Below, piece after piece: positions 2,665-31,084 of a stretch of 38,599 nt of DNA. This DNA is from a virus. The stretch's first letter is position 1. Every line of letters starts with the position of its first letter. The stretch spans positions 1 to 38,599 of IMG/VR virus record IMGVR_UViG_3300045012_000175. One strand, written 5' to 3'. The translations under genes and the position numbers were made by a program. The notes beneath the pieces are model-generated. The model did no database searches. It was not told the DNA's origin and worked only from the letters and a program-made list of their open reading frames with translations.

Positions 2665-2916
2665 ATGCGAATCAGCATACTCACCATCATAGCCTATCTA
2701 TTTGCATCAGCGGTGGCAGCGTACTGTTTCATCGAGGTCGGTATCAACGGGATTCTATGCGTTTATATTGCTGGTTTTATAATGGTGCTGCTTAATCCTA
2801 TAATCAAAATATATGAAAGAAGAATTAAGGCGCGAGATAAGCGCCGAGTTAGCCAATGGGTCGAAGATATCTGCCGCATCGGTGAGACGGTTGATGAGGA
2901 AGCATTCGATAAGTAG
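2665..2916 (+). CDS. Small membrane protein with two predicted segments
   Basis: An 83-residue protein. Residues about 4-24 and 28-48 are hydrophobic and would span the membrane, followed by a strongly basic stretch (YERRIKARDKRRVSQW) and an acidic end (ETVDEEAFDK). A short protein with two membrane segments and a charged cytoplasmic tail could be a holin, but nothing specific identifies it. The last 104 bp overlap the next gene (2813-3361) in another frame, so one of the two boundaries may be wrong. It lies directly downstream of the parS-like site. Confidence 0.55.
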   Translation: MRISILTIIAYLFASAVAAYCFIEVGINGILCVYIAGFIMVLLNPIIKIYERRIKARDKRRVSQWVEDICRIGETVDEEAFDK

Positions 2917-4015: not shown

Positions 4016-4651
4016 TTATTGTGGTGATTTTGCTTTCGGAATTTCCCCATACACATCACGTTGGTCTAGGGTAACATTTTTGTCGGTCCATCTGCCGGCG
4101 GTGGAGGAATAGCCCGCAAGCTGGATGGCACACATAGGGTAGATCACGCTACAGGAAAGGCCGGCAACTGCGGCAATATCAATATGTTCATCGTCTGGCA
4201 GCGCGAGAAATTGTTTATATGCCCATTTGAAAAGAATATACGCGTGGAAACCTTCGGGACCGGACATATAGCTGATCTGTAGGAAGTCGTGTTCGGGCAT
4301 TGTTTGTTTAAGTTCACGCAAGCGCTCCATATTCGGTATATTATAAGCTCCGGCCAGTTGCAAGCTGAAGCCGGCTGGTTCGATATGTTTGCACCACTGC
4401 GCGAGGCCGTCGGGGGCGGGGAAATACGCATCTTGCTCGCAAACGCAGGCATAAGGAAGTTCCATATCCAGACAGCGTTGCACAATTTCTTTGTGCGAGG
4501 CGTTGATACTGCCGACGATTGTTTCACGGTAAATTGGCGCGACTGTGTTGATATTGTAGCCCTTGACGCCCTGATCCTGCAGATGTTTCACTACCACGCT
4601 CTCGCGACGTGGATCAATTAAACACCACACTGTCAGACTTTCAGGCTTCAT
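4016..4651 (-). CDS. Glycosyltransferase family 25-like protein
   Basis: A 211-residue protein. Residues about 48-80 resemble GT25 (LPS biosynthesis-type) enzymes: a SH--IV--CL-----PYA-V-EQDAYFP pattern, in which 'EQDA' corresponds to the acidic nucleotide-sugar binding stretch. Further along, SYMSGPEGFHAYILFKWAYKQF resembles the region after the GT-A core where these enzymes read 'G--AY-is---A'. It is one of five glycosyltransferase-like genes in this operon. Acceptor and sugar cannot be read from sequence. Its start overlaps the upstream stop as ATGA (4648-4651). Confidence 0.7.
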   Translation of the reverse strand: MKPESLTVWCLIDPRRESVVVKHLQDQGVKGYNINTVAPIYRETIVGSINASHKEIVQRCLDMELPYACVCEQDAYFPAPDGLAQWCKHIEPAGFSLQLAGAYNIPNMERLRELKQTMPEHDFLQISYMSGPEGFHAYILFKWAYKQFLALPDDEHIDIAAVAGLSCSVIYPMCAIQLAGYSSTAGRWTDKNVTLDQRDVYGEIPKAKSPQ

Positions 4652-5052
4652 TCGACGTTGATGTTTTCGGGTTCGGTGGCTGGTTCGGGTTCCGTATGCT
4701 TGCGAATTTCCTCAATGATCACGATCAGATCTTCCTCTCTCAGCGTCCAAACCGCCGTCAAAAGGTCGGCAATCAATACGTACGAATCCTTCAGAAACTC
4801 CCGTTTGAGCAGCTCCTGAATTTCAGGCGTGGAACGCGGATGGGTTAAGAGGCAGGACTGGACTGAGCGACAGGCCGCCAGAGCGGTGTTCGTTCGAGCC
4901 TTTAGCTCGTGCCTCTGATCTCCTAAGAGAAGCAGCCCGTACTCAGCCACTATCGCACCGATCACCATCATCTTTATCGCGGACGCTTTTTCGGCTATCG
5001 CTTGCTCCGCCACCTGCTGAATCTGTTCTCTGGGCATGAAATTTTCGATCAT
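4648..5052 (-). CDS. Hypothetical helical protein
   Basis: A 134-residue, mostly helical protein. A hydrophobic stretch at about residues 26-43 (IKMMVIGAIVAEYGLLLLGD) could be a membrane segment or a buried helix. The C-terminus is acidic and Pro-rich (EPEPATEPENINVE). No family is recognised. It is coupled by 4-bp ATGA overlaps on both sides, to the Pro-rich gene upstream and the GT25-like gene downstream. Confidence 0.5.
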   Translation of the reverse strand: MIENFMPREQIQQVAEQAIAEKASAIKMMVIGAIVAEYGLLLLGDQRHELKARTNTALAACRSVQSCLLTHPRSTPEIQELLKREFLKDSYVLIADLLTAVWTLREEDLIVIIEEIRKHTEPEPATEPENINVE

Positions 5053-5234
5053 AAATTGTATTTGTCGTATGGTGATTGATTGTCGTACTTAGCTGGCGGC
5101 CTCTGGATCTTTCGCGGCGGATCTGGGACATACACAGGTTCATTTCTGACGCGGTGTTTGCGGGGTGGTGGCGGATCCGGCAATTCCTTGAGCCGGGTTC
5201 CGAACATAGCCTGCTGTACTTGGGTCCGTTTCAT
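5049..5234 (-). CDS. Small proline-rich protein
   Basis: A 61-residue protein, basic and Pro-rich (LPDPPPPRKHRVRNEPVYVP, then PDPPRKIQRPPAKYDNQSPY), likely disordered. I chose Met at 5234 because it makes an ATGA overlap with the upstream methyltransferase stop (5231-5234), matching the rest of the operon; an upstream Met at 5258 adds eight residues. No function is recognised. A basic proline-rich chain like this may be a binding or linker peptide. Confidence 0.5.
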   Translation of the reverse strand: MKRTQVQQAMFGTRLKELPDPPPPRKHRVRNEPVYVPDPPRKIQRPPAKYDNQSPYDKYNL

Positions 5235-5824
5235 AAATAAAATATTGCTGTTTTCCATTTATTGATGCCGTCGTTGTCGGTGTGGCCTTGTTGCTCGAAA
5301 ATCTCCGATTGGTAGGGGCGCATGAGCGCTTCAGCAGCCGAACTCATCCACACATACGACTGTTGCCAGTTATCGGCGATAACTATGCGGGGCCGCGTCC
5401 GAGCCAAGGCAACCGCCAGTTCCAAGCAGTTATCACGCAGAATTCCGTCCACACATATAATATCAGGGTCGCATAATGGTGGAATTGTCAGGTATTCGGC
5501 GGCGCGGTTCTGGTCTCCTTCGTTTATTTCTCTCCATATCAAGGTCGCCTTATGATCAAGATTATTTGCGACGAGCCACTCGCGGATATTATGCAGCCAG
5601 AATCCATTAGTTTCTATCGTGTATACGTGAGCGCAGTGGGCGGCGAGCCATGCTGTTGACCAGCCACCACCGAATTCAAGAACGGTCAGCGCATGCAGCG
5701 GCGCTTCGGTGTCGTCGCGCCATTGTTGTAGGCGGTCCAGCATTCCTTGTGTCCACCAGGGGAAAACGATGCCACTGACTGGATCCACGACTTGCCACTG
5801 TACCAGGTTGTTGATGTCAAGCAT
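5231..5824 (-). CDS. Class I SAM-dependent methyltransferase-like protein
   Basis: About 197 residues from Met 5824. The Rossmann SAM-binding motif I is clear (TVLEFGGGWSTAWLA, about residues 47-61). Next comes the acidic end of strand 2 (VYTIETN, about 69-75), then DIICVDG near residue 119 and VIADNW near residue 150, as in FkbM-like and related small methyltransferases. A longer frame starts at 5935, but Met 5824 is preferred because it overlaps the stop of a real small gene in another frame (5817-5969). The substrate is unknown; an O-methylation of a sugar made by the neighbouring glycosyltransferases is possible. Confidence 0.72.
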   Translation of the reverse strand: MLDINNLVQWQVVDPVSGIVFPWWTQGMLDRLQQWRDDTEAPLHALTVLEFGGGWSTAWLAAHCAHVYTIETNGFWLHNIREWLVANNLDHKATLIWREINEGDQNRAAEYLTIPPLCDPDIICVDGILRDNCLELAVALARTRPRIVIADNWQQSYVWMSSAAEALMRPYQSEIFEQQGHTDNDGINKWKTAIFYL

Positions 5825-5969
5825 GTTTACGGTTGAAGTGTCTTTCGATACTTTTGAGTATTTCTTTTTGCGCATCTGTCGGTTCTGGCAGCGATAAATT
5901 ACTCGCCAGCGGCAACCTATGTGGTTTAGTTTCAAATAATCGCTTCTTCTGTTTTCGCATATGCTTCAT
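5817..5969 (-). CDS. Small basic protein (50 residues)
   Basis: A short gene translating as MKHMRKQKKRLFETK..., then LPLASNLSLPEPTDAQKEIL and ending KSIERHFNRKHA. It has a basic start, a central Pro/Ser linker and a helical end. Support is positional: its ATG overlaps the upstream stop as TAATG (5967-5971) and its TGA overlaps the start of the downstream methyltransferase (ATGCTTGA, 5817-5824). It fills an otherwise empty 140 bp gap in a tightly packed operon. Function unknown. Confidence 0.65.
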   Translation of the reverse strand: MKHMRKQKKRLFETKPHRLPLASNLSLPEPTDAQKEILKSIERHFNRKHA

Positions 5970-6526
5970 TATATTCGTTTTAGTATTGTTAATCCATTAT
6001 TATTTTCATAGTGCCGGTCTATTTGCCAGTCCTGGTGCGCATTAAGGAAGTCTGTAATCGGGCCCATCAACTCTCCTTTGAACGTTTCGGTATCGTGGAA
6101 CGCAAGGTAGCGCGTTGCCTTGGTCCCATGCGCTGCCAGTTCAGCGCTAAGGTGTTCGCGCGTGTGAACCGTGTCGAAAAAGATCATGTCGCACTCCGGA
6201 ATTGGCGCTGTGACTGAGTTGGTGCAGAGGAATTCATATTGAACCCCCAGCCGCTTCGATTCTGAATACACTAGATCCAGGTTGCCTCCCATTGGGTCGT
6301 GATCTTTGTACTGCGAAGGGTGAGCCATGTCAACCGAGATCAGGCGCTTGGGCAAGCCCAGCAGGAGCGCCCAGGTACTGACGATGGACCTAACACCGAG
6401 CTCAACCACAATATCTAACCCATGCGCATACGCACGGAGTGTTGCTATGTGCTGGCAAATGTCGTTGTTACTCTTGACGTAGTACTCAAACAACTCTTCT
6501 GCTGTCTGTGGTTTTTCTTTGCTCAT
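5969..6526 (-). CDS. Class I methyltransferase-like protein (Methyltransf_24/CmcI type)
   Basis: 185 residues from Met 6526 (an upstream Met at 6568 would overlap the previous gene by 83 bp). The motif-I region reads IVVELGVRSIVSTWALLLG (about residues 38-56), followed by LISVDM for strand 2. Then come MIFFDTVHTREHLSAEL, which matches the 'iD--H-ye-v--Dl' signature of the cephalosporin-hydroxylase/Methyltransf_24 group, and LAFHDTETF. The family often methylates sugars or secondary metabolites. Being embedded among glycosyltransferase genes suggests a glycan-tailoring role (inference). Its stop overlaps the next start as TAATG. Confidence 0.72.
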   Translation of the reverse strand: MSKEKPQTAEELFEYYVKSNNDICQHIATLRAYAHGLDIVVELGVRSIVSTWALLLGLPKRLISVDMAHPSQYKDHDPMGGNLDLVYSESKRLGVQYEFLCTNSVTAPIPECDMIFFDTVHTREHLSAELAAHGTKATRYLAFHDTETFKGELMGPITDFLNAHQDWQIDRHYENNNGLTILKRI

Positions 6527-7142
6527 GTAGTATATGCATTTTTTCAATGTCTTTCTCCCGCTCGCCATCGTGAGAGCGAAGGTAGTAGTGGTACGATTTT
6601 TCCTGTAGCTCTATGGCACGTTGCCCCTTGGTCGGCGTGATCCCATGCGCCTGCATCCACTGACCAACAGCTACGTCGTCGATATGTTCGAAACCAAAGT
6701 CTTTCCTATCATCCCCGATCATCAGGTCCACCAGGTCGCGGGAAATGATTGTTCCAGCTCCTGAAACGTACGTCATGTTCACGGTGTTATACGGCTCATT
6801 TTTGTAGTGGCCGATGGCGCCGCAATAAAGACTGTGGCGTGGGAGTGGCTCCAGGAAACGGTACAGTGCCGGAATATCCACATACGCGCCAGTGTTTGTT
6901 TTCATCACATAGTCAAAGTCTTCTGATGAGTGCTCGGTCAAAAAGTCAAGAAACTTCCACAGCATAGCGCCGTATCCTTCCGGCCTCCACCACACCCAGT
7001 CGCCTGGCTGGATGTTTTTGTGGTTGTTGCCCCAGAGGTAATAGACATCGGGGTTGTCTTTGCCCCACGTCTCCCTGATCCCATCAGCCAGAAGCGGATG
7101 CTGCAGCCATTCGGCACAAAGGACGGTGAAGAGGATTTTCAT
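6486..7142 (-). CDS. GT31 (galactosyltransferase)-like protein lacking DxD
   Basis: A 218-residue protein resembling the beta-1,3-galactosyltransferase (GT31) fold, a family better known from eukaryotes. It shows ADGIRETWG near the N-terminus (the R-tW motif), FDYVMKTNTGAYVD at about residues 76-89 where GT31 enzymes have K-DDD-fv, then LYCG, TYVSGAGTIISRDLVDLM (the Y--G-GY--s-d motif), and HIDDVAVGQWM (the E/D-DV--G motif). The DxD metal site reads TNTG, so the usual acidic residues are missing. The enzyme may be inactive, metal-independent or a lectin-like derivative. It overlaps its neighbours on both sides. Confidence 0.75.
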   Translation of the reverse strand: MKILFTVLCAEWLQHPLLADGIRETWGKDNPDVYYLWGNNHKNIQPGDWVWWRPEGYGAMLWKFLDFLTEHSSEDFDYVMKTNTGAYVDIPALYRFLEPLPRHSLYCGAIGHYKNEPYNTVNMTYVSGAGTIISRDLVDLMIGDDRKDFGFEHIDDVAVGQWMQAHGITPTKGQRAIELQEKSYHYYLRSHDGEREKDIEKMHILHEQRKTTDSRRVV

Positions 7143-7375
7143 GGTTCGATGGGCTTTAGATCAGGGACACGTTGTATTAAGAATGATAACCGCTTTTGCT
7201 GTTTTGCTAAAGTATCTAATTCTATGTCACCAGTTTCGGTATTTATTTTAGCTTTTTTACTATATAACGGAATCAGTATAACAGAATTATCTTTCGTGTA
7301 ATGAGCTTTAAATACTGTCGCAGTGTTAGATGCCTCTAATTTCATTATATAAAATTCGCCTTCTTCGATGTTCAT
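7139..7375 (-). CDS. Hypothetical small protein
   Basis: A 78-residue protein with alternating strand-like segments (EFYIMKLEA, TVFKAHYTK, SVILIPLYSK) and a GD-ELDTLAKQQKRL helix near the C-terminus, suggesting a small beta-rich fold. No family is recognised. ATGA overlaps join it to the glycosyltransferase-like genes on both sides (7139-7142 and 7372-7375). It may be an accessory subunit of those enzymes, but only position supports this. Confidence 0.5.
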   Translation of the reverse strand: MNIEEGEFYIMKLEASNTATVFKAHYTKDNSVILIPLYSKKAKINTETGDIELDTLAKQQKRLSFLIQRVPDLKPIEP

Positions 7376-8169
7376 AATAGTTCTTTGTATTTAGTGTGAT
7401 ATTCAAACAACCATTCAAAATCTTCATCCGGATATTGTATTGTCAGCAGCTCTACGATGTTGCTGAACGCTGGTTCCTCATATCCTGGCCGCCAAAGGTG
7501 CGCGTCTAGCAACGTTGGGCCACAGTAACTGCGCCAGTTCACGTCGTCACGATCTGCCCTGTTCATGGCGAATTGAGTGCCGGGTCGGGCGCGGTTTTGA
7601 AACGCTATCGGCTGATCAAACGATAGCTGTCGGTACAGGAGCGATTGATCAAAAGACCATTGATGGCCCCTAAAGTTTTCGCATTCTATTGGTCCCAACT
7701 CTGCGTCAAGGCATTCCTGCAGCGTGCGCCCCTTGATCTTCATCGCCTCGCGCCACCTGCTTACGCGTCCTGAAATATAGCAAACTGGATACTGCTTTTG
7801 CGGTACAAGATCTACGCCGAGAATATTCATATAGTCGTCGTCCGGAAAAACGTCTCTGAACACTATCATATCTGCGTCGGAGGTGATAAGGATGTCGTTT
7901 GGATCAACGATGCCATCTGCTGCCGCGAATAGTCTTCCAACCTGCGCGTACGTAGCCTGCTTATCTTCCGGCGCAATAAATGTAGCACACCAGCCATAAT
8001 TATTAATTTCGAGCGCCTTCATCAGCGCAAAATGTGCGGCTTTACTAATAACAGCCGGGATGATACAAATTGTTCTGATCCCCAGTTTCCCCCAACACCA
8101 CGCAGCTATCGGCACAAAAAAACTATATAGGGGATCGCTGGTAGTTGATATGACTGCGTATTTTTTCAC
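7372..8169 (-). CDS. GT-A-type glycosyltransferase-like protein
   Basis: A 265-residue protein. The nucleotide-sugar binding DxD is seen as ILITSDADMIVFRD (about residues 92-105), with the preceding helical segment that places it in a GT-A fold. A C-terminal region rich in aromatic and His residues (HLWRPGYEEPAFSN) could contribute to the acceptor site. The N-terminus, MKKYAVISTTSDPLYSFFVP, reads as the first beta strand of a Rossmann-like fold; it is not a signal peptide. It lies in the same operon as four other glycosyltransferase-like genes. Sugar and acceptor unknown. Confidence 0.72.
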   Translation of the reverse strand: MKKYAVISTTSDPLYSFFVPIAAWCWGKLGIRTICIIPAVISKAAHFALMKALEINNYGWCATFIAPEDKQATYAQVGRLFAAADGIVDPNDILITSDADMIVFRDVFPDDDYMNILGVDLVPQKQYPVCYISGRVSRWREAMKIKGRTLQECLDAELGPIECENFRGHQWSFDQSLLYRQLSFDQPIAFQNRARPGTQFAMNRADRDDVNWRSYCGPTLLDAHLWRPGYEEPAFSNIVELLTIQYPDEDFEWLFEYHTKYKELL

Positions 8170-8459
8170 CCTATGATTTTGAGTAAGTGAGCTTCGATTT
8201 CATCGAGCATCCTATTGTTGGCGTATATCTCCTGCAACCTGGCTTCGCAAAATTGCGCGAAATCAGTGATGGCCGGATCTTTAGGTTTCTCTACTTGTTC
8301 TGGTTTACGAAGATTGAGGATATCATGCAGCCTTGACTGGATCCGGTTGATAGTGCACTGCTGCGTGCTGAGATAGTCGCTCAAATTCTGCCCGAATTGT
8401 TTTAACATTGGGTTAGACGCTTCCTGTACTGGTGCTGGATTTACTGCTCCTTGATACAT
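8166..8459 (-). CDS. Hypothetical helical protein
   Basis: A 97-residue protein, mainly helical, with heptad-like stretches (LKQFGQNLSDYLSTQQ, then INRIQSRLHDILNL) and a second helical part at the C-terminus (RLQEIYANNRMLDEIEAHLL). It is likely to form a short coiled coil. No family is recognised. Its stop is ATGA-coupled to the glycosyltransferase-like gene at 7372-8169; the gene before it ends 34 bp upstream. Confidence 0.5.
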   Translation of the reverse strand: MYQGAVNPAPVQEASNPMLKQFGQNLSDYLSTQQCTINRIQSRLHDILNLRKPEQVEKPKDPAITDFAQFCEARLQEIYANNRMLDEIEAHLLKIIG

Positions 8460-8493
8460 ATATTTTTATTTTGTGCGCCGGGGTAGCGCGGGT

Positions 8494-9174
8494 TTAAATC
8501 CCCTGTAAAAAAAAGATGACTTCCTCCGGATTATGCTGCGGCCAGTAGGCGACAGCCTCTGTGCTGTATTTGTTGGTGAGCCCCAGTTGATACATTGCCA
8601 GCGAAAAGCAGGACTGATCCTGGCGAAAATGCAAGAAACGTGGATCACTCGACTGGCCATCATGGTTCCGGCTCCCCTTACTCAGGCCACTCTCAACGTA
8701 CGATTTCCACAGACGATAAAGCCGTGCACCATCAGGGTTATCCATTCGAAAGCCGAGAAACCCTCCGGCCCATTCGTTGGCATCAGCTACCTGGTCGCGG
8801 GTTAGGCGTAAGGTGGCCAGCACACTGTCACTGATTGTCTGCCCCAAGTTGTACCCTGTCCTAAAGCAATAGAACCCCTGTTCATCAATGATATCAAATA
8901 TCGTCATCGGTGATTTTACGGCCCAAAAACTTGCATCCACCCAAAGAATGTGAGTGTATCCTGCTTCTATAGCCCAGTCGATGGCACTGATCTTGAATGC
9001 GTACGGGAACTGTTCGTGACTGGGGCTGTTGGGCGGATACTCATTCTTCCATGTATGCCACGGTATCGGAGAGCCCACGAAGTTCAGCGAACGTTCAAGC
9101 CGCTCCACTCCTTTAGCGAACCACTGTCCGTTACCGCAGGAGAGAATGATTGGTCGCGTGTTATTGAGGTCCAT
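8494..9174 (-). CDS. Putative glycosyltransferase (GT-A-like)
   Basis: A 226-residue protein. The key segment is FKISAIDWAIEAGYTHILWVDASFWAVKSP (about residues 60-89), a helix then a strand ending in D-A-S, where GT-A enzymes carry DxD. Later EWAGGFLGFRMD and the C-terminal HFRQDQSCFS resemble the acceptor and 'DQ' motifs of small nucleotide-sugar transferases. The acidic pair is incomplete (DAS), so activity is less sure than for the gene at 7372-8169. Its start overlaps the stop of the GldL-like gene as TAATG. Confidence 0.62.
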   Translation of the reverse strand: MDLNNTRPIILSCGNGQWFAKGVERLERSLNFVGSPIPWHTWKNEYPPNSPSHEQFPYAFKISAIDWAIEAGYTHILWVDASFWAVKSPMTIFDIIDEQGFYCFRTGYNLGQTISDSVLATLRLTRDQVADANEWAGGFLGFRMDNPDGARLYRLWKSYVESGLSKGSRNHDGQSSDPRFLHFRQDQSCFSLAMYQLGLTNKYSTEAVAYWPQHNPEEVIFFLQGI

Positions 9175-9446
9175 TACTTATATATGCGGTTAAGAATAGA
9201 GTTGGTTGTGCGGATTTCTTTCACCACTTCATCATTCGGCTGCGATGGTGCACCTCCAACCTCGGAAGCCTTCGGCGGCGTGAAAGCATAAATCAGAAAG
9301 ATGACACACTCTGATAATAGTCCGGCTGTGAGAGCTGTATCAGCAAAATAGTGGTGTTCAATCTTACCCCAAGCGCCAAAAATAACAATGGCTGCTCCGA
9401 ATGAGAAGCAGAAATTAAGAACGGTCTCTCGTGTGAATCGTTTCAT
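9174..9446 (-). CDS. GldL-like two-segment membrane protein
   Basis: A 90-residue protein with membrane segments at about residues 10-26 and 38-55. The sequence GAAIVIFGAWGKIEHHYFAD, followed by ALTAGLLSECVIFLIYAFTP, closely follows the N-terminal membrane region of GldL, the Bacteroidota T9SS/gliding motor protein. That includes a Lys at the end of segment 1 (K28) and a Glu in segment 2 (E46) at the places of functionally important residues in GldL. GldL is about 215 residues, so only the membrane part is present, with a short tail. It may sit in the host inner membrane and interact with the motor, or serve as a holin-like protein; the first is inference from similarity. Confidence 0.68.
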   Translation of the reverse strand: MKRFTRETVLNFCFSFGAAIVIFGAWGKIEHHYFADTALTAGLLSECVIFLIYAFTPPKASEVGGAPSQPNDEVVKEIRTTNSILNRIYK

Positions 9447-9469
9447 TGTGTGTAGGTTTACGTAGAATT

Positions 9470-9766
9470 CTATCCATGCCAGACGCGTGTTGATTTAAAC
9501 TTGCCTTTAATATTTGCGTGGAAAAATTTTCCTACGCTGTCAACCTGCAACATCGCGTCGAAGATCGAGGGCGGTACCTCGTGGTAGTCCCACACTTCTC
9601 CTGATTTAAACCATACGCGGAGTGTGTTGTCCTGGTGGCCGATATGGCTGATTAATGACGAGGCGACGAGGGTTTGTTTCATTTTACGAGATTTTATTGC
9701 GTTATAAGTAGCTTCAGCGTGAGCGATTATTCCAGTTACTTTTGCGTGTATTACGTTCGGGTCCAT
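9470..9766 (-). CDS. KTSC domain protein
   Basis: A 98-residue protein. Residues about 36-96 match the KTSC domain pattern: SSLISHIGHQDNTLRVWFKS, GEVWDYHEVPPSIFDAMLQV, then SVGKFFHANIKGKF. KTSC domains (named for a Lys-tRNA synthetase-associated form) are common in phage and their role is not settled; a nucleic-acid or RNA-binding role has been suggested. About 35 helical residues precede the domain. The start overlaps the upstream stop as TAATG. Confidence 0.78.
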   Translation of the reverse strand: MDPNVIHAKVTGIIAHAEATYNAIKSRKMKQTLVASSLISHIGHQDNTLRVWFKSGEVWDYHEVPPSIFDAMLQVDSVGKFFHANIKGKFKSTRVWHG

Positions 9767-9975
9767 TATAACTTTTCGAAATATTCGTTTATAAATTTTT
9801 CATCCGCTGATGGCATAACTATACTCACGTAGCCGGTTTTGAAATTTAGTCTGGCTGTAGTATTTGGTTCCGGGCTTAACGATCCAAAAAAGAATCCATC
9901 GGCGCCTTTACCAATCTGGTGTCCCCCTTCAATTTGTAAATCATGTTTTAGTTTATGCGTTTTCTTTGATTCCAT
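9766..9975 (-). CDS. Hypothetical small protein
   Basis: 69 residues from the preferred Met at 9975 (87 if the Met at 10029 is used, which would increase overlap with the GT2 gene to 77 bp). The sequence is basic at first (MESKKTHKLKHDLQIEGGH) and then strand-rich (ARLNFKTGYVSIVMPSADEK) with a short terminal helix. No family is recognised. It lies between the GT2-like gene and the KTSC gene, overlapping both. Confidence 0.48.
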   Translation of the reverse strand: MESKKTHKLKHDLQIEGGHQIGKGADGFFFGSLSPEPNTTARLNFKTGYVSIVMPSADEKFINEYFEKL

Positions 9976-10636
9976 AGCGTTCGTTGTGATTTGTTGATGT
10001 ACGTCTATACAAATAAATTTCCGAATCAATGTGGATCTCTTCTCTCAGCATTGGCCTGATAAGTCTTGCGAAGTCGTGGTCCTCGCCGAAGCGCATATCA
10101 GCAACACCAATGTGGCAGCAATAGTCTCTACGAATCACAGATTTAAAGAAAGGTGTGCGATGAAAATGAAAGCCATCCTCCAATTCTCGGTCGCCTTCGC
10201 CTTCCCAATCAGGATAGCGCAGTGAATGGTTGGATTTCTTGATCACCCCATCCATATCGCAGTGCTCCTGGTAAGTCACGCAATCAGGCCTACTCTCAAG
10301 GGCGTACATAATCTGTGCGAGTGCGGTTTCTGCAACCCAATCATCGCTGTCCCATTGAACCGCGTACAACCCAGATGCGAGGCGGTAGAGGCGGTCGCGT
10401 TTTGTCCCCACGCTGATCTGCCGGTCGTCTTCATAATAATGTAGGCTGATGTTGGGTGAATACCAACCTCCAATCGTAGATCCATCCTCCTTCTTCCCCG
10501 AAAGAAAACCACGGAATTCGGTGGCGTCCGTAAGCTGCATAGCCTGGCGAAGAAATTCTCCTACCAGGCTATCGCAGGCCTGTCTTCTGTCGGGCGTACT
10601 CGGAATTAGTATAGATAGTATTGGGTTAGTAAGCAT
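9953..10636 (-). CDS. GT2-like glycosyltransferase
   Basis: A 227-residue protein of the GT2 (GT-A) type. It begins with the usual first strand and helix (ILSILIPSTPDRRQACDSL). The DxD motif appears as YAVQWDSDDWVAETAL (about residues 91-106), placing the metal-binding acidic residues, and EDHDFARLIRP near residue 193 matches the catalytic 'ED' region. The size fits a single-domain soluble GT2. It belongs to the glycan operon; donor and acceptor unknown. Confidence 0.82.
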   Translation of the reverse strand: MLTNPILSILIPSTPDRRQACDSLVGEFLRQAMQLTDATEFRGFLSGKKEDGSTIGGWYSPNISLHYYEDDRQISVGTKRDRLYRLASGLYAVQWDSDDWVAETALAQIMYALESRPDCVTYQEHCDMDGVIKKSNHSLRYPDWEGEGDRELEDGFHFHRTPFFKSVIRRDYCCHIGVADMRFGEDHDFARLIRPMLREEIHIDSEIYLYRRTSTNHNERYGIKENA

Positions 10637-10638
10637 TA

Positions 10639-10908
10639 TTATTGATTGTCTATGGCTACAATTATCGTTGCTTTATATTTTTGACCTGATGTTTCAAATT
10701 TCATAAGACCATTATTCCCAGGACCGATTCTCTGAGCGAAAATTTCGGCTCCTACGTGAGAATACCAGCCTCTTTCAAAATCGTGAGCTATTTCAGTCAG
10801 ATTCGAAATAGCGGCTTTAACCATGTCATTACCGCGGATCTCATTATACTTAGTAAGGTTATTTATAACCGAAATAATATCATCCTGTTTCTTAAAACCG
10901 TCATTCAT
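10639..10908 (-). CDS. Hypothetical small protein
   Basis: An 89-residue protein, helical in its first 45 residues (MNDGFKKQDDIISVINNLTK..., KAAISNLTEIAHDFERG) and strand-rich at the end (KYKATIIVAIDNQ). No family is recognised. It is coupled by ATGA to the glycosyltransferase-like gene upstream and ends 2 bp before the start of the GT2 gene downstream. Confidence 0.5.
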   Translation of the reverse strand: MNDGFKKQDDIISVINNLTKYNEIRGNDMVKAAISNLTEIAHDFERGWYSHVGAEIFAQRIGPGNNGLMKFETSGQKYKATIIVAIDNQ

Positions 10909-11576
10909 AAATCAAAATTATTTGCCTCGCGTTTTTCGTAATTTAATTTATCTTCTGAATATCCTATCTCCTGCTGCTCGTCGAACATGGCGTCTCGTGG
11001 CAAATGCCCATAAGCCGGATTCATATGAATGCAGATTGGTGTTGGAATAAACAGATAGCGTTCTCTTAAGCGAGCCACCTCTGTTGCCTCGTTGTCGCAG
11101 AACAGCGACTTATACGATGGATGGTAGACGTAATGATCGCGCTGGTAGTAGGCCCTCCCAATCACAGACATTACAGATACTCTCTCTGCTGAATCGCGCT
11201 CAACGAAATGTATAAACCAATCAAGGTCTTCAGGCATGTAGTCCATAATCAGGCGGTCCCAGCCTTTTACGCACATGGCCATATCGTCTGAAAAGGCGAC
11301 AAGAATATCCCAATCAGCGGGGACGCGGTTGAATGCATCGACTTTGCTTTTACTGTAACCGATATCCATCGTCACTTTTATTTCTGGATTTGTCCCCCAA
11401 TATTCTGCTATTTCGCGTCTATACGTTCCTAGCGACAGATCATCCATATCAAGTACTGCATTAACTCGAAAGAGGTTGGGATCTACACAGTTGCCATATA
11501 TTGAAAACAGCCCATCCATGAATCTCTGCGGTCTTCCGCGACTTGGGTATTGTATGAGGATGGGGCGGTGGGTCAT
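10905..11576 (-). CDS. GT-A-type glycosyltransferase-like protein
   Basis: A 223-residue protein starting PILIQYPSRGRPQRFMDGLF, the first strand and 'SRGRP' turn common in small GT2-like enzymes. An acidic pair appears in ILVAFSDDMAMCVKGWDRLI (about residues 91-110), as expected for the metal site, and LFCDNEATEV near residue 155 may be the second acidic motif. The gene directly follows the GroES-like gene with an ATGA overlap (11573-11576). Confidence 0.72.
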   Translation of the reverse strand: MTHRPILIQYPSRGRPQRFMDGLFSIYGNCVDPNLFRVNAVLDMDDLSLGTYRREIAEYWGTNPEIKVTMDIGYSKSKVDAFNRVPADWDILVAFSDDMAMCVKGWDRLIMDYMPEDLDWFIHFVERDSAERVSVMSVIGRAYYQRDHYVYHPSYKSLFCDNEATEVARLRERYLFIPTPICIHMNPAYGHLPRDAMFDEQQEIGYSEDKLNYEKREANNFDL

Positions 11577-11830
11577 ACTACTCCATATATTTCTGATGGA
11601 AGATCACGTAACAAAAGAAACAGTTTGCCATCAATTTCATACTGCACGCCAGCGCCAGCGGGATGAAGGATTTTGTCCTTCGCTTTGCAGTCGCTGTCTG
11701 GGCCAGCTTTCACAACTTCGCTGACCTTGGTTGGACTGTGAGCCGGCGATAGCACCAGCCCTCCTGCCGTTTTCTTTTCAGAGGGTTTCTCCGTTTTGCA
11801 TAGAACCCAATCGTGTTTCATTCGTTTCAT
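11573..11830 (-). CDS. groES: GroES-like co-chaperonin
   Basis: An 85-residue protein of the Cpn10 family. The order is as in GroES: strand DWVLCKTEK, mobile loop KKTAGGLVLSPAHSP (about residues 19-33, where GroES contacts GroEL), strand VSEVVKAGPDS, the KAKDKILHP turn, and the C-terminal GKLFLLLRDLPSEIYGVV. It is about a dozen residues shorter than bacterial GroES (about 97). Phage co-chaperonins such as T4 gp31 replace host GroES so that GroEL can fold large capsid proteins. It is the first gene of the minus-strand operon, facing the virion operon across a 71 bp gap. Confidence 0.88.
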   Translation of the reverse strand: MKRMKHDWVLCKTEKPSEKKTAGGLVLSPAHSPTKVSEVVKAGPDSDCKAKDKILHPAGAGVQYEIDGKLFLLLRDLPSEIYGVV

Positions 11831-18631: not shown

Positions 18632-18824
18632 AAAGCCGGTGTTGGTTGAAACGCCACTTGGGCAAGGATATGTGTGGTATGTGACAGACGGGAAGATGTT
18701 TGAGAATGATTGTTTCACTGTGATACTGATGGAAAGCGGAATTGTGAAGCATTTTACGAGTGAGCAGATAAAGGTGAGTAAAAATTATACGTATGGGATC
18801 GGGATCAACGACAAAGACCGGTAG
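18615..18824 (+). CDS. Hypothetical small protein
   Basis: A 69-residue, strand-rich protein (KPVLVETPLGQGYVWYVTDG, CFTVILMESGIVKHFTSEQI) resembling a small SH3-like barrel, with a short C-terminal tail. No family is recognised. It overlaps the genes on both sides (17 bp and 32 bp) in the virion operon, between the muzzle and the acetyltransferase. Confidence 0.48.
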   Translation: MIHEFEKPVLVETPLGQGYVWYVTDGKMFENDCFTVILMESGIVKHFTSEQIKVSKNYTYGIGINDKDR

Positions 18825-19272
18825 GCTGACAGCCATCCAACTTGCTCCTGTACAGTTCTTTGAGTATATAAAAGAGAGGATTACAACGCAATCCGAAAGG
18901 GCGTATATAGATTCGATTATGATACCTGGAGTGCTTGGGCCGAACCCTATCTATTACACGTTCTGGCTGGGGATTGATCATGTACGCGAACTGATTGTGT
19001 GCGAGGCTTATTTTAAGGGCGAACCAGTGAAGGGAACAGTGGAGATCGGATATCAGGTTGTTAATGGGTTCGAGTATCAGGGATACACGTCGGAAATGGT
19101 TGGGTTGCTGGTGGATGTGGCTCGCGGGATCAGCGAGATAAGGACACTGGAAGCGATAGTAGCCGATTGGAATGTGCACTCAAAGCGAATTTTGGAGAAA
19201 AACGGATTTAAACAAATAGCCAAATCTACGGTGGACGGTATCAGCGTGGGAGTTTGGCACAAAAAAGTATAA
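18793..19272 (+). CDS. GNAT-family acetyltransferase
   Basis: A 159-residue protein with GNAT motifs. GTVEIGYQVVNGFEYQGYTS is the strand-4/motif A region, where 'GYTSEM' occupies the acetyl-CoA pyrophosphate loop. LEAIVADWNVHSKRILEKNG, followed by FKQIAK, is the motif B pattern of RimI/RimJ-type enzymes. Its placement inside the virion operon is unusual: such enzymes acetylate amino groups of proteins, small molecules or sugars. The N-terminus is Gly/Ser-rich and overlaps the preceding gene by 32 bp. Substrate unknown. Confidence 0.75.
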   Translation: MGSGSTTKTGRLTAIQLAPVQFFEYIKERITTQSERAYIDSIMIPGVLGPNPIYYTFWLGIDHVRELIVCEAYFKGEPVKGTVEIGYQVVNGFEYQGYTSEMVGLLVDVARGISEIRTLEAIVADWNVHSKRILEKNGFKQIAKSTVDGISVGVWHKKV

Positions 19273-26318: not shown

Positions 26319-26495
26319 ATGTTATTATGGTTAATGAATCTTGGATTTGCAGGTGGTACACAATTTATTCCATCATCCCCGCCTCCACCAGTAAGTCAGT
26401 CGGGGGATGGTGTCAGAAAACACGAAAATCATTTAGACGACGATTATGAAGCTATACATCAAATGTTAAATGCCTTTCTTATATGCCAGGATTAG
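26319..26495 (+). CDS. Small protein (58 residues)
   Basis: Starting at ATG 26319 (or 26334), the frame reads MLLWLMNLGFAGGTQFIPSS, then PPPPVSQSG, then DDDYEAIHQMLNAFLICQD. It has a hydrophobic start, a Pro/Ser/Gly linker and an acidic helical end. It fills the gap between the appendage-like gene (ends 26315) and the 1533-residue gene (starts 26483), overlapping the latter by 13 bp. No family is recognised. Coding character is good for its length. Confidence 0.55.
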   Translation: MLLWLMNLGFAGGTQFIPSSPPPPVSQSGDGVRKHENHLDDDYEAIHQMLNAFLICQD

Positions 26496-29400
26496 GCCCA
26501 TGTGCAGGTAAGAGCCCACTCGGGGCTGACGAACAGAAGTATCTGCTCGATGAGTCCGCGCGCCATCAGAAGAACGGGCTGTCAGTAGAAGATGCAGACA
26601 GGCAGGCCGTTCGTGAATTCCAGCATAAAACACTCGATTCGCTGCAGGATATTTACCGCCAGATTGGTATTAAAGGCCATGAACCGGCAGCACCGGCAGC
26701 GGCTGAACCAGGTGCTGATGTACTTGAGGCGAGACACGCCAATACCGAACACGACGAGCAGCAGATTGTATCAGGACAGAACAAGCTCGGCCTCAGTGAC
26801 CTTGGTAAGAAGGATGCCGCAGCGTTGCGTGATCAGGTCCAAGCCGATCATGCGCCCACCAAAATAATTTCCTCTGACCTCCCTCGTTCAAAAGAAACGG
26901 CAGATATTGTTGCCGATGGTAAGATACCTGTTGAAACAAGGCCGGAGTTGCGATCTTGGGATCTCGGTAAGTTCGGTGGCATGAAAGACGCTGAATTTAA
27001 GCCTGAACAAAAGTATTTCGTCGAGCATCCGGACGCTACCGAGCATAATGGGAAGACGCTGGGCGAGAGCTTCAACCAATACAAAGACCGCGTTATCCAG
27101 GCGCGCCAGAATGTTGACGATCCGGACGCTATGTTAATCAATCACTCTAACAACATGGCTATCTGGGATGCATACCAGAAAAATGGCGGTAAGTGGGACG
27201 AAACCGCAGCCAAGGACTACCTCGCATCAAAGACGCCAGAGCCAGCGACGCTGCATTCCACACCAGAAGAAGAAGCAACGGCCAGCGCGGTGAAGGCCGG
27301 AAAAATTCCCGATTCAGAAATCAAAAAAGCTATAACCGATGAAATCACATCCCGCAGCGGTGTTCAGCCACGCGATCAGCGGCAACCAGGACATGATGAA
27401 GCTAATGGAAAAGTACGACGCGCCAACGAAAAAACGGATAATGAGGGGAGCGCTCGTGCGTCTGTCGAAGGGAAAACCGCTGGAGCAGAACCCGAAACAG
27501 GAGGCGCCAGAGTATCCGCCGATACAGGCGCCGCAGACAAAGCTCATATAGAGTTTGAGAAGGAAGTCGAAGCCGCATTTGCCGGCGGTCGAGTGAAAGG
27601 AAAAGTCATCACCGACGAAGGCAACCGCGTATGGATTGAGGCTAAGGATGGGACGAAGTACCCGGTTGCGAAGAAGGATATTCTGAAGAGTGGTGAATCT
27701 GTGCTGGATAAGTATCCGAAGGCGAAGCTGGGGGAGCAGGGGGAGAGCGCGGCGGTTACACCAAAAGCATATTCAGACCCTGGGCGGGCATTAGAAACTA
27801 TTCGCACTGAGACTCCAGATCTTAAACGCGCAGCAGATTTCCTTGAACCAATACTGCGCGGCAAGAAAAATATCAGTATAGAGAATGTAGAAGGATTAAA
27901 GGATCCACGCTCAGGTGCAGCAGCACTGGGCCTTGCTCATCCTGACGGGCGCATCCAGGTTGATTTTGCAGCCCATCGTTCCATGGATGACGCGCACCAA
28001 ACGATTGTCCATGAGTTATTGCACCAAGCAACTAGGACAGAGATCGAGACAAACCCGGCGTTCAAACAAGAGGTGTCAGGGCTACTCAACGATATTCGAA
28101 AAGCTATGAAGCTACCTGTTGGCAATACAGGGGATGTAATGATCCCGGCTTTGGTAGAACGCGGCGTTATCCCTGCAGAAAAATATGGAGCCAGTAATGA
28201 GCATGAGGTAATTGCGGAAGTATTCTCTAATCCGAAGTTCCGATCAATGCTGGAAGACATGAAAGCTCCTGACGCGCCAAAAGAGAATATGCTGCAGCGG
28301 GTGGTTAAATCCATTGTGCGGTTTTTCAATCGCAAATATGACGCTCTGCAAAATGTCAAAGGCCGTATATCGGCAACCGATATGGCTGACCATTTGATGC
28401 AACTTACTGAAGGAACGGTTAAAGCCGCTGGGACGAAGGGCGACGCACTTGCGCTCGCAGCCGGCCTAAATCCTGAAGAACAGGCAGCGGCAAATTTTAT
28501 AAAGCGGGCGCCGGATAGCATGAGCGATGGAGAGCTGGGGGATATCCTTGAAAAGCATTCTGGATTGGATCGGCCAACTATCAACCAACTTATCAACGAT
28601 CACCGTGAAACGCTTGGTGCCGGAGACGATCCTGAAGCCATGGTCAAACGCGCACTTGAAATCGGCAAGCAAACTTACGCTCAGAGCAAACGCGACCCCT
28701 TAGCGCCAAAAATGCCAGCGGATACACCGAGCACGATGAACAAACTCTCGCGTTGGTTCGGTGGACGCCAAGATGAAGTGACTGATGTAAAGTCAATTAT
28801 CAGGACGAACAAAGGACAGGAAGAGCACGATCTGAATGCAATCTACAAGGCCAGTAATGACCTAAGAGATATGTGGAATAAGAAAAGTCGGGAGCAGCAA
28901 CTGGCATTTCAGCTTATGATGCAGAAACCGGGACTCCTGAAAAATCAACCAATGGAAGTGCAGGCTGCCGCAGAAGCATATAGAAAACGCTTCGATGCGA
29001 GTTTCGACATGATTCAGTCTGTGGCTCCGAAAGCGTCATACCTTGAAGATTATTTTCCCGGCTTTTGGAAGAAACCAGATCAGGTAAGGAATTTCTTTGC
29101 CGACGCTGTGAGTAAATCGCCATTGGAAGGCAGTAAGAGTTTCCTCAAGCAGAAATTCTTCGATACTATTCTGGATGGTCTGCGCAAAGGCTACAAACCG
29201 ATCACGTACAACCCAGAAGAAATGGTACGTCTGGCAGAAGCGAATGCCTACAAATTTAAGACCGCGCACGATATTTTGTCTGATATGAAGGATAAAGGAT
29301 TGCTCCAGTATAGCATCGGTAAAGGCGATATTCCAAATGGATGGCAGACGATAAAAGACCCATTGTTTCAGCGTATGAGTCTCTACCTCGATCCGAAAAC

Positions 29401-31084
29401 TGGCGATCCCGAGATGGCCAAAGGCGCATATTACATGCCTCCGGAAGTAGCGAAGCTGATCAACGACTACCAAAGCCCCGGCCTCCGTGGCCCGGCAAAG
29501 ACAGTGATTCAAACATACAACAACATAAAAAATACTTTCCAGCTTGGCGTCGGAGGATTCCACTTTGTTACCACAGCTATTGATAATGCTGTGACAGGAA
29601 CGAGTATCGGGCTGCAGAAATTGAGTCACGGAAACATCCTCGGTGGAATCGGAGAACTGGCGAAGTCAGCCTCCTTCATCCCAACAACAGTCGAGTCTCT
29701 CTATAAGGGCTTCAAAGCCGTCAAGGACTACAACTCCGGCAAGATGACCGACGATGTTCAGAGTTTGATTGATGCAAATGCGCGTGTTGGGAAACAGCGC
29801 ATGTATACTCTCGACGCGCAATATAATATGAAGAAGGCCTGGGGCCAGATGCTTGCCAATAAAGATGCACGCCAGATCCTTCCGTTCCTCGGCAATAGCG
29901 CTATGTATCTGCCGGAAGCCATAAATAAGCCACTCATGGAACGGTGGGTACCGGCGCTGAAGGTTGGTGGCTACCTCAGATCGTTGAAGTCTGAAATAGA
30001 GGCACGTCCGAATATGACTCCGGAGGAACTACAAAGTGCAAAAGAGAAAATCTGGGATTCCATGGATGACAGGCTCGGTCAGGTTGTGTATGATAATGTA
30101 TTCATGAATAAATCATACAAAGACCTTGCATTTATGGCTATCAGGTCTGCAGGTTGGACTGGCGGTACAATCAGATCTGCAGTAAAAGGGGCTGCGGAGA
30201 TTCCACTATCCGCATCGAGACTGGTGAAGGGCGAAGGTATCACTCAACGCACGGCCTACATGCTGGCACTTCCACTCACCGTCGGTTTCTTTGGCGCGGC
30301 GTATCATTATATGAATACCGGACAAGCGCCGGACTCCCTGGAAGACTACTTCTACCCAAAAGACGGAACGAAAAATCCGGATGGAACGGACCACAGAGTT
30401 ACGCTGCCATCGTATATGAAGGATTATATAAGTTATGGGAATAAGCCAGTGGAAACGCTCATGCACAAGACCAGTCCGATAGTGAACGACGCTGTTGAAC
30501 TGTATCAGAATAAAGATTTTTACGGCGTGCAGATAGCGAACCCAAAAGATCCTATGTATATGCGTGGACTCGAACGACTCGAATACGAGGCAAAAACAAT
30601 GGTCCCATTCTCATTTAAGAGTCAGCCATACACCAATCCAACGCCAAAGCAGCGTATCGAGCAGGGCTTTGGACTCTTGCACGCTCCAGTAACAGCAGAA
30701 CGAACCGACACGCAGAACGCCATCAGTAAAGCATATGTTGATCAGATGGGTCATGAAGCAGAAGGCAAAACACAGGCGGATCTTGAAAAACAGGTTGCGC
30801 GTAAGCATCTCCGTGAGTTCCTGTTTAATGGTGGAGAGTATGACGACGCAGATCCTGAGATGAAGAAAAAGGCCGATATTAGTGACAAGGCGCTTACTAC
30901 GTTTATTAAGGAGGGGAAAATGGATCCGTACGAAAGGTACTTCTCGCATTTAAAGTCCGACACTAAAATTGAATTATATAAGCAGATGAAACCTGCTGAT
31001 AAAGAAAAATATATTCAATACATGCCAAAGGACTGGGAGAATCCGGATGAGCCGACTAACTCACAAATAGTACCACTCAAATGA
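26483..31084 (+). CDS. Polyvalent protein B: histidine phosphatase plus metallopeptidase
   Basis: A 1533-residue multidomain protein. Residues about 80-235 form a histidine phosphatase (phosphoglycerate mutase-like) domain: RHANTEH (catalytic R84, H85), SSDLPRSKET (R135), RSWDLGKFGG, and INHSNN (H221). Residues 355-405 form a small beta domain. Residues about 450-620 form a zincin metallopeptidase with HELLH at 510-514 and a downstream EHEVIAEVFSNP (E575/E579 as likely third ligand). The rest is helical with hydrophobic stretches near 1010-1080 and 1250-1270, and a DYFYPKDGT segment typical of phage large polyvalent proteins. It is probably packaged and delivered into the host cytoplasm. Confidence 0.78.
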   Translation: MPGLGPCAGKSPLGADEQKYLLDESARHQKNGLSVEDADRQAVREFQHKTLDSLQDIYRQIGIKGHEPAAPAAAEPGADVLEARHANTEHDEQQIVSGQNKLGLSDLGKKDAAALRDQVQADHAPTKIISSDLPRSKETADIVADGKIPVETRPELRSWDLGKFGGMKDAEFKPEQKYFVEHPDATEHNGKTLGESFNQYKDRVIQARQNVDDPDAMLINHSNNMAIWDAYQKNGGKWDETAAKDYLASKTPEPATLHSTPEEEATASAVKAGKIPDSEIKKAITDEITSRSGVQPRDQRQPGHDEANGKVRRANEKTDNEGSARASVEGKTAGAEPETGGARVSADTGAADKAHIEFEKEVEAAFAGGRVKGKVITDEGNRVWIEAKDGTKYPVAKKDILKSGESVLDKYPKAKLGEQGESAAVTPKAYSDPGRALETIRTETPDLKRAADFLEPILRGKKNISIENVEGLKDPRSGAAALGLAHPDGRIQVDFAAHRSMDDAHQTIVHELLHQATRTEIETNPAFKQEVSGLLNDIRKAMKLPVGNTGDVMIPALVERGVIPAEKYGASNEHEVIAEVFSNPKFRSMLEDMKAPDAPKENMLQRVVKSIVRFFNRKYDALQNVKGRISATDMADHLMQLTEGTVKAAGTKGDALALAAGLNPEEQAAANFIKRAPDSMSDGELGDILEKHSGLDRPTINQLINDHRETLGAGDDPEAMVKRALEIGKQTYAQSKRDPLAPKMPADTPSTMNKLSRWFGGRQDEVTDVKSIIRTNKGQEEHDLNAIYKASNDLRDMWNKKSREQQLAFQLMMQKPGLLKNQPMEVQAAAEAYRKRFDASFDMIQSVAPKASYLEDYFPGFWKKPDQVRNFFADAVSKSPLEGSKSFLKQKFFDTILDGLRKGYKPITYNPEEMVRLAEANAYKFKTAHDILSDMKDKGLLQYSIGKGDIPNGWQTIKDPLFQRMSLYLDPKTGDPEMAKGAYYMPPEVAKLINDYQSPGLRGPAKTVIQTYNNIKNTFQLGVGGFHFVTTAIDNAVTGTSIGLQKLSHGNILGGIGELAKSASFIPTTVESLYKGFKAVKDYNSGKMTDDVQSLIDANARVGKQRMYTLDAQYNMKKAWGQMLANKDARQILPFLGNSAMYLPEAINKPLMERWVPALKVGGYLRSLKSEIEARPNMTPEELQSAKEKIWDSMDDRLGQVVYDNVFMNKSYKDLAFMAIRSAGWTGGTIRSAVKGAAEIPLSASRLVKGEGITQRTAYMLALPLTVGFFGAAYHYMNTGQAPDSLEDYFYPKDGTKNPDGTDHRVTLPSYMKDYISYGNKPVETLMHKTSPIVNDAVELYQNKDFYGVQIANPKDPMYMRGLERLEYEAKTMVPFSFKSQPYTNPTPKQRIEQGFGLLHAPVTAERTDTQNAISKAYVDQMGHEAEGKTQADLEKQVARKHLREFLFNGGEYDDADPEMKKKADISDKALTTFIKEGKMDPYERYFSHLKSDTKIELYKQMKPADKEKYIQYMPKDWENPDEPTNSQIVPLK
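27339..27551 (+). CDS. Overprinted small gene inside polyvalent B
   Basis: A 70-residue frame (+1 relative to the 1533-residue gene). Part of it reads GNQDMMKLMEKYDAPTKKRI, then MRGALVRLSKGKPLEQ, a well-formed helical, basic sequence with a clear Pro-rich end (APEYPPIQAPQTK). The host frame over the same bases is a disordered linker (DNEGSARASVEGKTAGAEPE) between the histidine phosphatase and the next domain. A start at 27339 or at the ATG pair 27393/27396 is possible. I cannot name the family, so this is less certain than the overprinted gene at 23464. Confidence 0.5.
   Translation: MKSHPAAVFSHAISGNQDMMKLMEKYDAPTKKRIMRGALVRLSKGKPLEQNPKQEAPEYPPIQAPQTKLI

Follow-up and report, generated by a model that had tools for sequence, protein, structure and literature searches.

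A 90-residue protein encoded by an environmental phage contains a two-helix hairpin with homology to GldL, which forms the ring of the type 9 secretion system (T9SS) and gliding motor. The gene, termed mini-gldL here, was found in the window (the whole stretch of DNA analysed, 38,599 bases), which is the complete IMG/VR virus record IMGVR_UViG_3300045012_000175; the record is classed as linear and thus may be a fragment. Genes for a terminase large subunit (31658–33691, plus strand; phrog_6681, E = 1.3e-63; tblastn matches in 87 phage records) and a portal protein (33688–36006, plus strand; phrog_6547, E = 5.5e-66) are present in this same virus record, and mini-GldL is therefore phage-borne. 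The terminase matches those of Flavobacterium, Cellulophaga, Tenacibaculum and Maribacter phages (27–28% identity among the matches listed) and, on sequence comparison, places the phage near the Flavobacterium/Cellulophaga phages.

The mini-gldL gene (9174–9446, minus strand) starts with ATG and encodes a GldL_N hairpin followed by a short tail, as judged from the open reading frame, Pfam, TIGR03513, phmmer and AlphaFold2. Its stop codon overlaps by 1 nt the start codon of the downstream gene (8494–9174, minus strand), whose 226-residue product has no family match in Pfam or PHROGs. The upstream gene (9470–9766, minus strand), 23 nt away, encodes a 98-residue KTSC domain protein (Pfam, E = 1.5e-16), and a phage GroES (Cpn10; 11573–11830, minus strand; Pfam E = 8.6e-7; phrog_3188) is located in the same minus-strand run. 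The annotation of the window places no gldK, gldM or gldN among the neighbours of mini-gldL, and GldM_1st was not found in the record. Dense glycosyltransferase- and methyltransferase-like genes occupy 4016–11576 (minus strand), with matches to Galactosyl_T (25 bits), Glyco_transf_25 (21 bits, below cut-off) and PHROGs glycosyltransferases; they possibly serve to change surface or virion sugars. Elsewhere, a 1533-residue protein of the structural region (26483–31084, plus strand) has a His_Phos_1 domain at residues 83–211 (E = 6e-23), and a GNAT acetyltransferase gene (18793–19272, plus strand; Acetyltransf_3, E = 1e-8) sits amid the structural genes. No lysis gene was recognised in the record with Pfam or PHROGs, and the record is perhaps incomplete. 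A candidate for the holin of this phage is an 83-residue protein (2665–2916, plus strand) that has two helices and a strongly basic tail and matches no family.

Homology and predicted structure

The sole Pfam match of the 90-residue protein is GldL_N (PF22827), which covers residues 14–60 with 63.4 bits (E = 2.3e-17), well above the curated cut-off of 24. TIGR03513, which describes full-length GldL, scores 47.1 bits and so falls below its cut-off of 68.3, as expected because the protein is a fragment of GldL. Five GldL/PorL sequences of solved structure match in phmmer, from 3.8e-6. Using a hidden Markov model (HMM) of 91 bacterial GldLs, the protein scored 71.1 bits; the best of the shuffled hairpins reached 8.7 (1000 made, 906 scored). 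No PHROGs family matches the protein. In the alignment of the GldL family, Lys-28, His-31 and Glu-46 pair with invariant GldL positions.

The AlphaFold2 model (mean pLDDT 77.6) is a hairpin with a tail helix. Transmembrane helix 1 comprises residues 6–30 (9357–9431, minus strand), supported by hydropathy, and contains Lys-28 (codon 9363–9365); His-31 (9354–9356, minus strand), aligned with the conserved GldL histidine, follows it. Helix 2 is formed by residues 35–55 (9282–9344, minus strand) and contains Glu-46 (codon 9309–9311), which aligns with Glu-49 of Flavobacterium johnsoniae GldL. The predicted tail helix spans residues 72–89 (9180–9233, minus strand). Hydropathy alone identifies hydrophobic segments at 9–27 and 37–55. 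The top nine PDB matches of the model are all GldL/PorL chains (probability 0.99–1.00; TM-score up to 0.87, normalised to target length); their E-values are 4e-3 or weaker since the hairpin chain is short. Nothing in the viral fold library matched at E ≤ 0.001.

The preliminary description had proposed that the two membrane segments copy the motor region of GldL, with a lysine ending the first and a glutamate in the second. Both the GldL_N score and the matches to solved GldL/PorL sequences and folds bear this out, and the two residues are where it put them, aligned with conserved GldL residues. Its view of the protein as a GldL reduced to the membrane part also holds, in that most of the cytoplasmic domain is gone. 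Mini-GldL thus has in common with GldL/PorL (PDB 7sau, 7sat, 7sax and 6ys8; PF22827; TIGR03513) the two-helix hairpin and the Lys/His/Glu set, and differs in size (the bacterial GldLs used here have around 200–400 residues), in being phage-borne and in having no gldK, gldM or gldN neighbours. Class II holins have two helices and both ends in the cytoplasm. A holin topology, which had been named as evidence against kinship with GldL, does not discriminate because GldL too has two helices with both ends cytoplasmic; the two transmembrane helices predicted here by AlphaFold2 and hydropathy would fit either family.

Bacterial relatives

The protein matches 88 of 395 genomes sampled from a single phylum, the one to which the named Nafulsella locus (L060) belongs, and PF22827 matches 96 of 395 genomes drawn from the same phylum. 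The nearest matches, 50–59% identical over around 58 residues, come from full-length gldL within a single family, in which 140 of the 147 genomes match. The homology to GldL, together with these nearest GldLs, supports the earlier suggestion that the protein itself names Bacteroidota as the host phylum. Glu-59 of F. johnsoniae GldL is described as required for adhesin movement and dispensable for secretion (PMC8986121); the equivalent position is Leu in the nearest GldL type and Thr (Thr-56) in the phage protein.

The bacterial matches examined included no recognisable short GldL copy of the phage type. Short-frame matches in two genomes (G523 and G469) were rejected as ordinary gldL genes adjacent to gldK/gldM, interrupted where an assembly gap or the end of a contig fell; the others examined were either small hairpins with weak scores or GldL-like frames of greater length. 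We note seven chromosomal Bacteroidota loci (L090, L091, L092, L094 and L121–L123) encoding hairpin proteins of 57–96 residues. These resemble mini-GldL in being short and in having the GldL-like GA..K..H motif; they differ in being chromosomal, in scoring only around 20–33 bits (with GldL_N or the window protein) and in missing much of the GldL signature.

Phage relatives and their gene context

Scans of the viral_contigs collection with the window protein alone or with a broad alignment found nothing. When the query combined the hairpin of the window protein with six closely related GldLs, two further short copies emerged, and scans seeded with the phage copies yielded further relatives. In all, 22 IMG/VR contigs beyond the window carry short GldL-like proteins of 87–146 residues, which with that of the window amount to 14 distinct proteins. 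PF22827 scored above its cut-off in all four relatives tested (87.2, 67.8, 75.2 and 72.9 bits). One of the two short copies, of 100 residues (L126/L135), is on a contig whose open reading frames, read by eye, include sheath-like and capsid-like genes and where, GldL apart, no compared window gene has a match; the other, of 87 residues (L127/L136), is on a 65.9-kb phage record that has the terminase (39–44% identity) and portal (35%) most similar to those of the window. The mini-gldL gene is carried by at least two phage types, at different gene positions. No isolate in the phages collection was found to carry a mini-GldL. The sole strong match there, MT839621.1 (L002, 1–10524), deposited in GenBank as 'Bacteriophage sp.', was rejected as mislabelled; its GldK-, GldL-, GldM- and GldN-like frames make up a bacterial T9SS operon, GldL being identified by PF22827 and the others by eye.

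The remaining copies are of a longer form (131–146 residues, plus one 115-residue frame with an ambiguous residue) consisting of hairpin and tail; the model of a 144-residue member is of low confidence (pLDDT 66). Aligned to the HMM of the 91 bacterial GldLs, the hairpin is joined to the C-terminus with much of the GldL middle missing. All ten distinct tails score as diverged GldL C-termini, with none of 500 shuffles reaching the score. The tail of the window protein gave no significant score (23 of 500 shuffles as high), and the other two short copies gave 33 and 9 of 500, thus the three shortest proteins show no clear pass. It follows that the longer form is GldL minus much of its cytoplasmic domain, while the short form is proven to be GldL in its hairpin only. 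Lys and Glu are kept in all 13 distinct phage proteins aligned and His in 11, with Asn in the other two (L162 was left out of the alignment); most longer-form copies also retain Glu or Asp at the Glu-59 position. Simple Nei–Gojobori counts, which are rough, cover mostly 55 codons and come from pairs that share sequences, gave dN/dS of 0.02–0.17 for the longer-form hairpin (10 pairs) and 0.38–0.81 for the tails (finite in 9 of 10). The longer-form hairpin is under purifying selection. Between the hairpins of the window and L135, the differences by codon position (18/15/40) are biased to the third.

In 17 of the 22 contigs mini-gldL is directly upstream of a holin gene, with a spacing of −1 to +2 nt. 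These holins are homologous to that of L139 (phmmer E at most 6.3e-20), and the assignment relies on phrog_3427 (98 bits) and PF11351 (27.5 bits). Many of these contigs are nearly identical to one another, and together the 17 represent 8 distinct mini-GldLs; where the terminase is covered, it is around 28–30% identical to that of the window. The GTA_holin_3TM/phrog_3427 holins are, like mini-GldL, small membrane proteins and are of a different family. Two contigs (L146 and L165) have the order groEL–mini-gldL–groES, in which mini-gldL overlaps the ends of both genes (L146 8436–10638, plus strand); in L146 it is apart from an M15 endolysin and holin-like pair. The remaining three contigs (L135, L136 and L162) have neither arrangement. 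GldM_1st (PF12081), the motor axle, and the T9SS cargo domain Por_Secre_tail were each found in 0 of 10 mini-gldL phage records; as several of these are fragments, such absence is weak for each single record. A scan of viral_contigs for the GldM N-terminus gave 76 pattern matches and no confirmed relative.

In the tree, the three short copies group with GAW-type GldLs and the longer copies lie elsewhere, requiring at least three changes. A single phage clade appears in 0% of 200 bootstrap trees and is borderline in the AU test (p = 0.049); the three short copies as one clade are not rejected (p = 0.45). Since the AU result is borderline, the alignment has 68 columns and the bacterial sample was picked by similarity searches, separate captures of GldL by phages are likely, not proven.

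Possible function

The preliminary description had suggested that the protein enters the host motor and blocks or redirects it, which is plausible and fits published biology. We favour, at slightly less than even likelihood, the reading that mini-GldL is an uncoupling or poison subunit that joins the GldLM motor of the host and halts secretion and gliding, on which many phages rely for adsorption. Its two helices would insert into the inner membrane of the host; the hairpin, by which GldL contacts both GldL and GldM, is retained, so the protein could co-assemble with the host GldL pentamer ring and GldM axle. GldL and GldM are described as meeting through their transmembrane helices, GldL Glu-49 being essential (PMC8986121), and GldM Arg-9 as pairing with this residue (PMC12239597). 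Mixed or all-phage rings might then be unanchored or blocked, uncoupling the motor, since mini-GldL is without most of the cytoplasmic tail, the long GldL tail being described as a proposed anchor (PMC9389320) and the PorL tail as bound by the regulator PorX (PMC5005315). A tail-poor hairpin should enter the ring yet escape anchoring and regulation, and this is why uncoupling is favoured. The fold and GldL_N matches, the conservation of Lys/His/Glu, the selection on the hairpin, the truncated tail, the recurrence in phages and the failure to detect GldM are all consistent with it. The likely result would be loss of T9SS secretion and gliding, presumably late in infection, and with it the loss of surface structures needed by competing phages, from which the phage may benefit; an idle proton leak perhaps aids lysis. 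F. columnare gldM, gldK, gldN and sprA mutants are reported to be phage resistant (PMC9233685), and gld or spr mutations to confer phage resistance (PMC9233685, PMC13288928).

Four observations count against uncoupling. No isolate in the phages collection carries the gene. The longer form retains the GldL C-terminus, so it might instead function as a normal part of the motor. A gene for superinfection exclusion might be anticipated to act early, yet the holin-linked copies look late. The strongest objection to reading mini-GldL purely in terms of the T9SS is the holin adjacency, seen in 17 of the 22 contigs, which points equally to lysis. The GldL hairpin could have been recruited as a holin partner or as a proton leak, reducing the membrane potential and setting the time at which the holin opens, with no need to contact the host motor. 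The end of mini-gldL within −1 to +2 nt of the holin start, the small size and holin-like two-helix topology, and the conserved ionisable residues would all suit such a role. The relatives, however, already have a separate holin next door, L146 has the gene between groEL and groES away from its endolysin and holin-like pair, and in the window it sits in the glycosyltransferase-like run with no lysis gene recognised beside it. Neither the window protein nor those of L126, L127, L139 and L146 match a holin family in Pfam or PHROGs. We consider this role rather unlikely.

Less probable again is that mini-GldL is an active hairpin that keeps or tunes T9SS secretion or gliding, for example for envelope functions or spread of progeny. 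The retained Lys, His and Glu, and the Glu or Asp at the Glu-59 position in most longer-form copies, agree with an active subunit, and some phages are described as encoding T9SS cargo (Cryophage, PMC7468147), which like mini-GldL is proposed to work via the host T9SS. The Cryophage genes, though, encode cargo proteins (PMC7468147), whereas mini-GldL is homologous to a motor part; the failure to detect GldM or the cargo domain in any of the 10 records, and the loss of most of the proposed anchoring and regulatory tail, argue against a supplementary role. It is very improbable that the gene is a functionless host fragment, left by transduction or an assembly chimera, even though no phage relative of the window copy was recognised at an equal gene position: the frame is intact and within an operon, its hairpin differs from that of L135 mostly at third positions, and the gene recurs in 22 further contigs, with purifying selection in the longer form. 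Our ranking is thus an uncoupling or poison subunit above a lysis accessory, and this above a motor supplement. More tentatively, Bacteroidota phages may have captured GldL repeatedly and cut it to the proton-channel hairpin and a stub, which would act as a clutch in the host GldLM ring, uncoupling torque, excluding rivals and draining the proton gradient, hence the link with holins.

We found no description of phage-encoded GldL or gliding genes in the literature covered, which is weak evidence since most subscription papers lie outside that coverage. Mini-GldLs appear to be an overlooked gene family of environmental phages, the short form having no matching PHROGs family. As natural minimal GldL hairpins, they offer a test of the tail as the anchor of the 5:2 motor and of which residues are sufficient for assembly. 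If the uncoupling reading is true, mini-GldL would give phages a means to antagonise or modulate the T9SS and gliding motor, on which the adsorption of Flavobacterium and Cellulophaga phages has been shown to depend.
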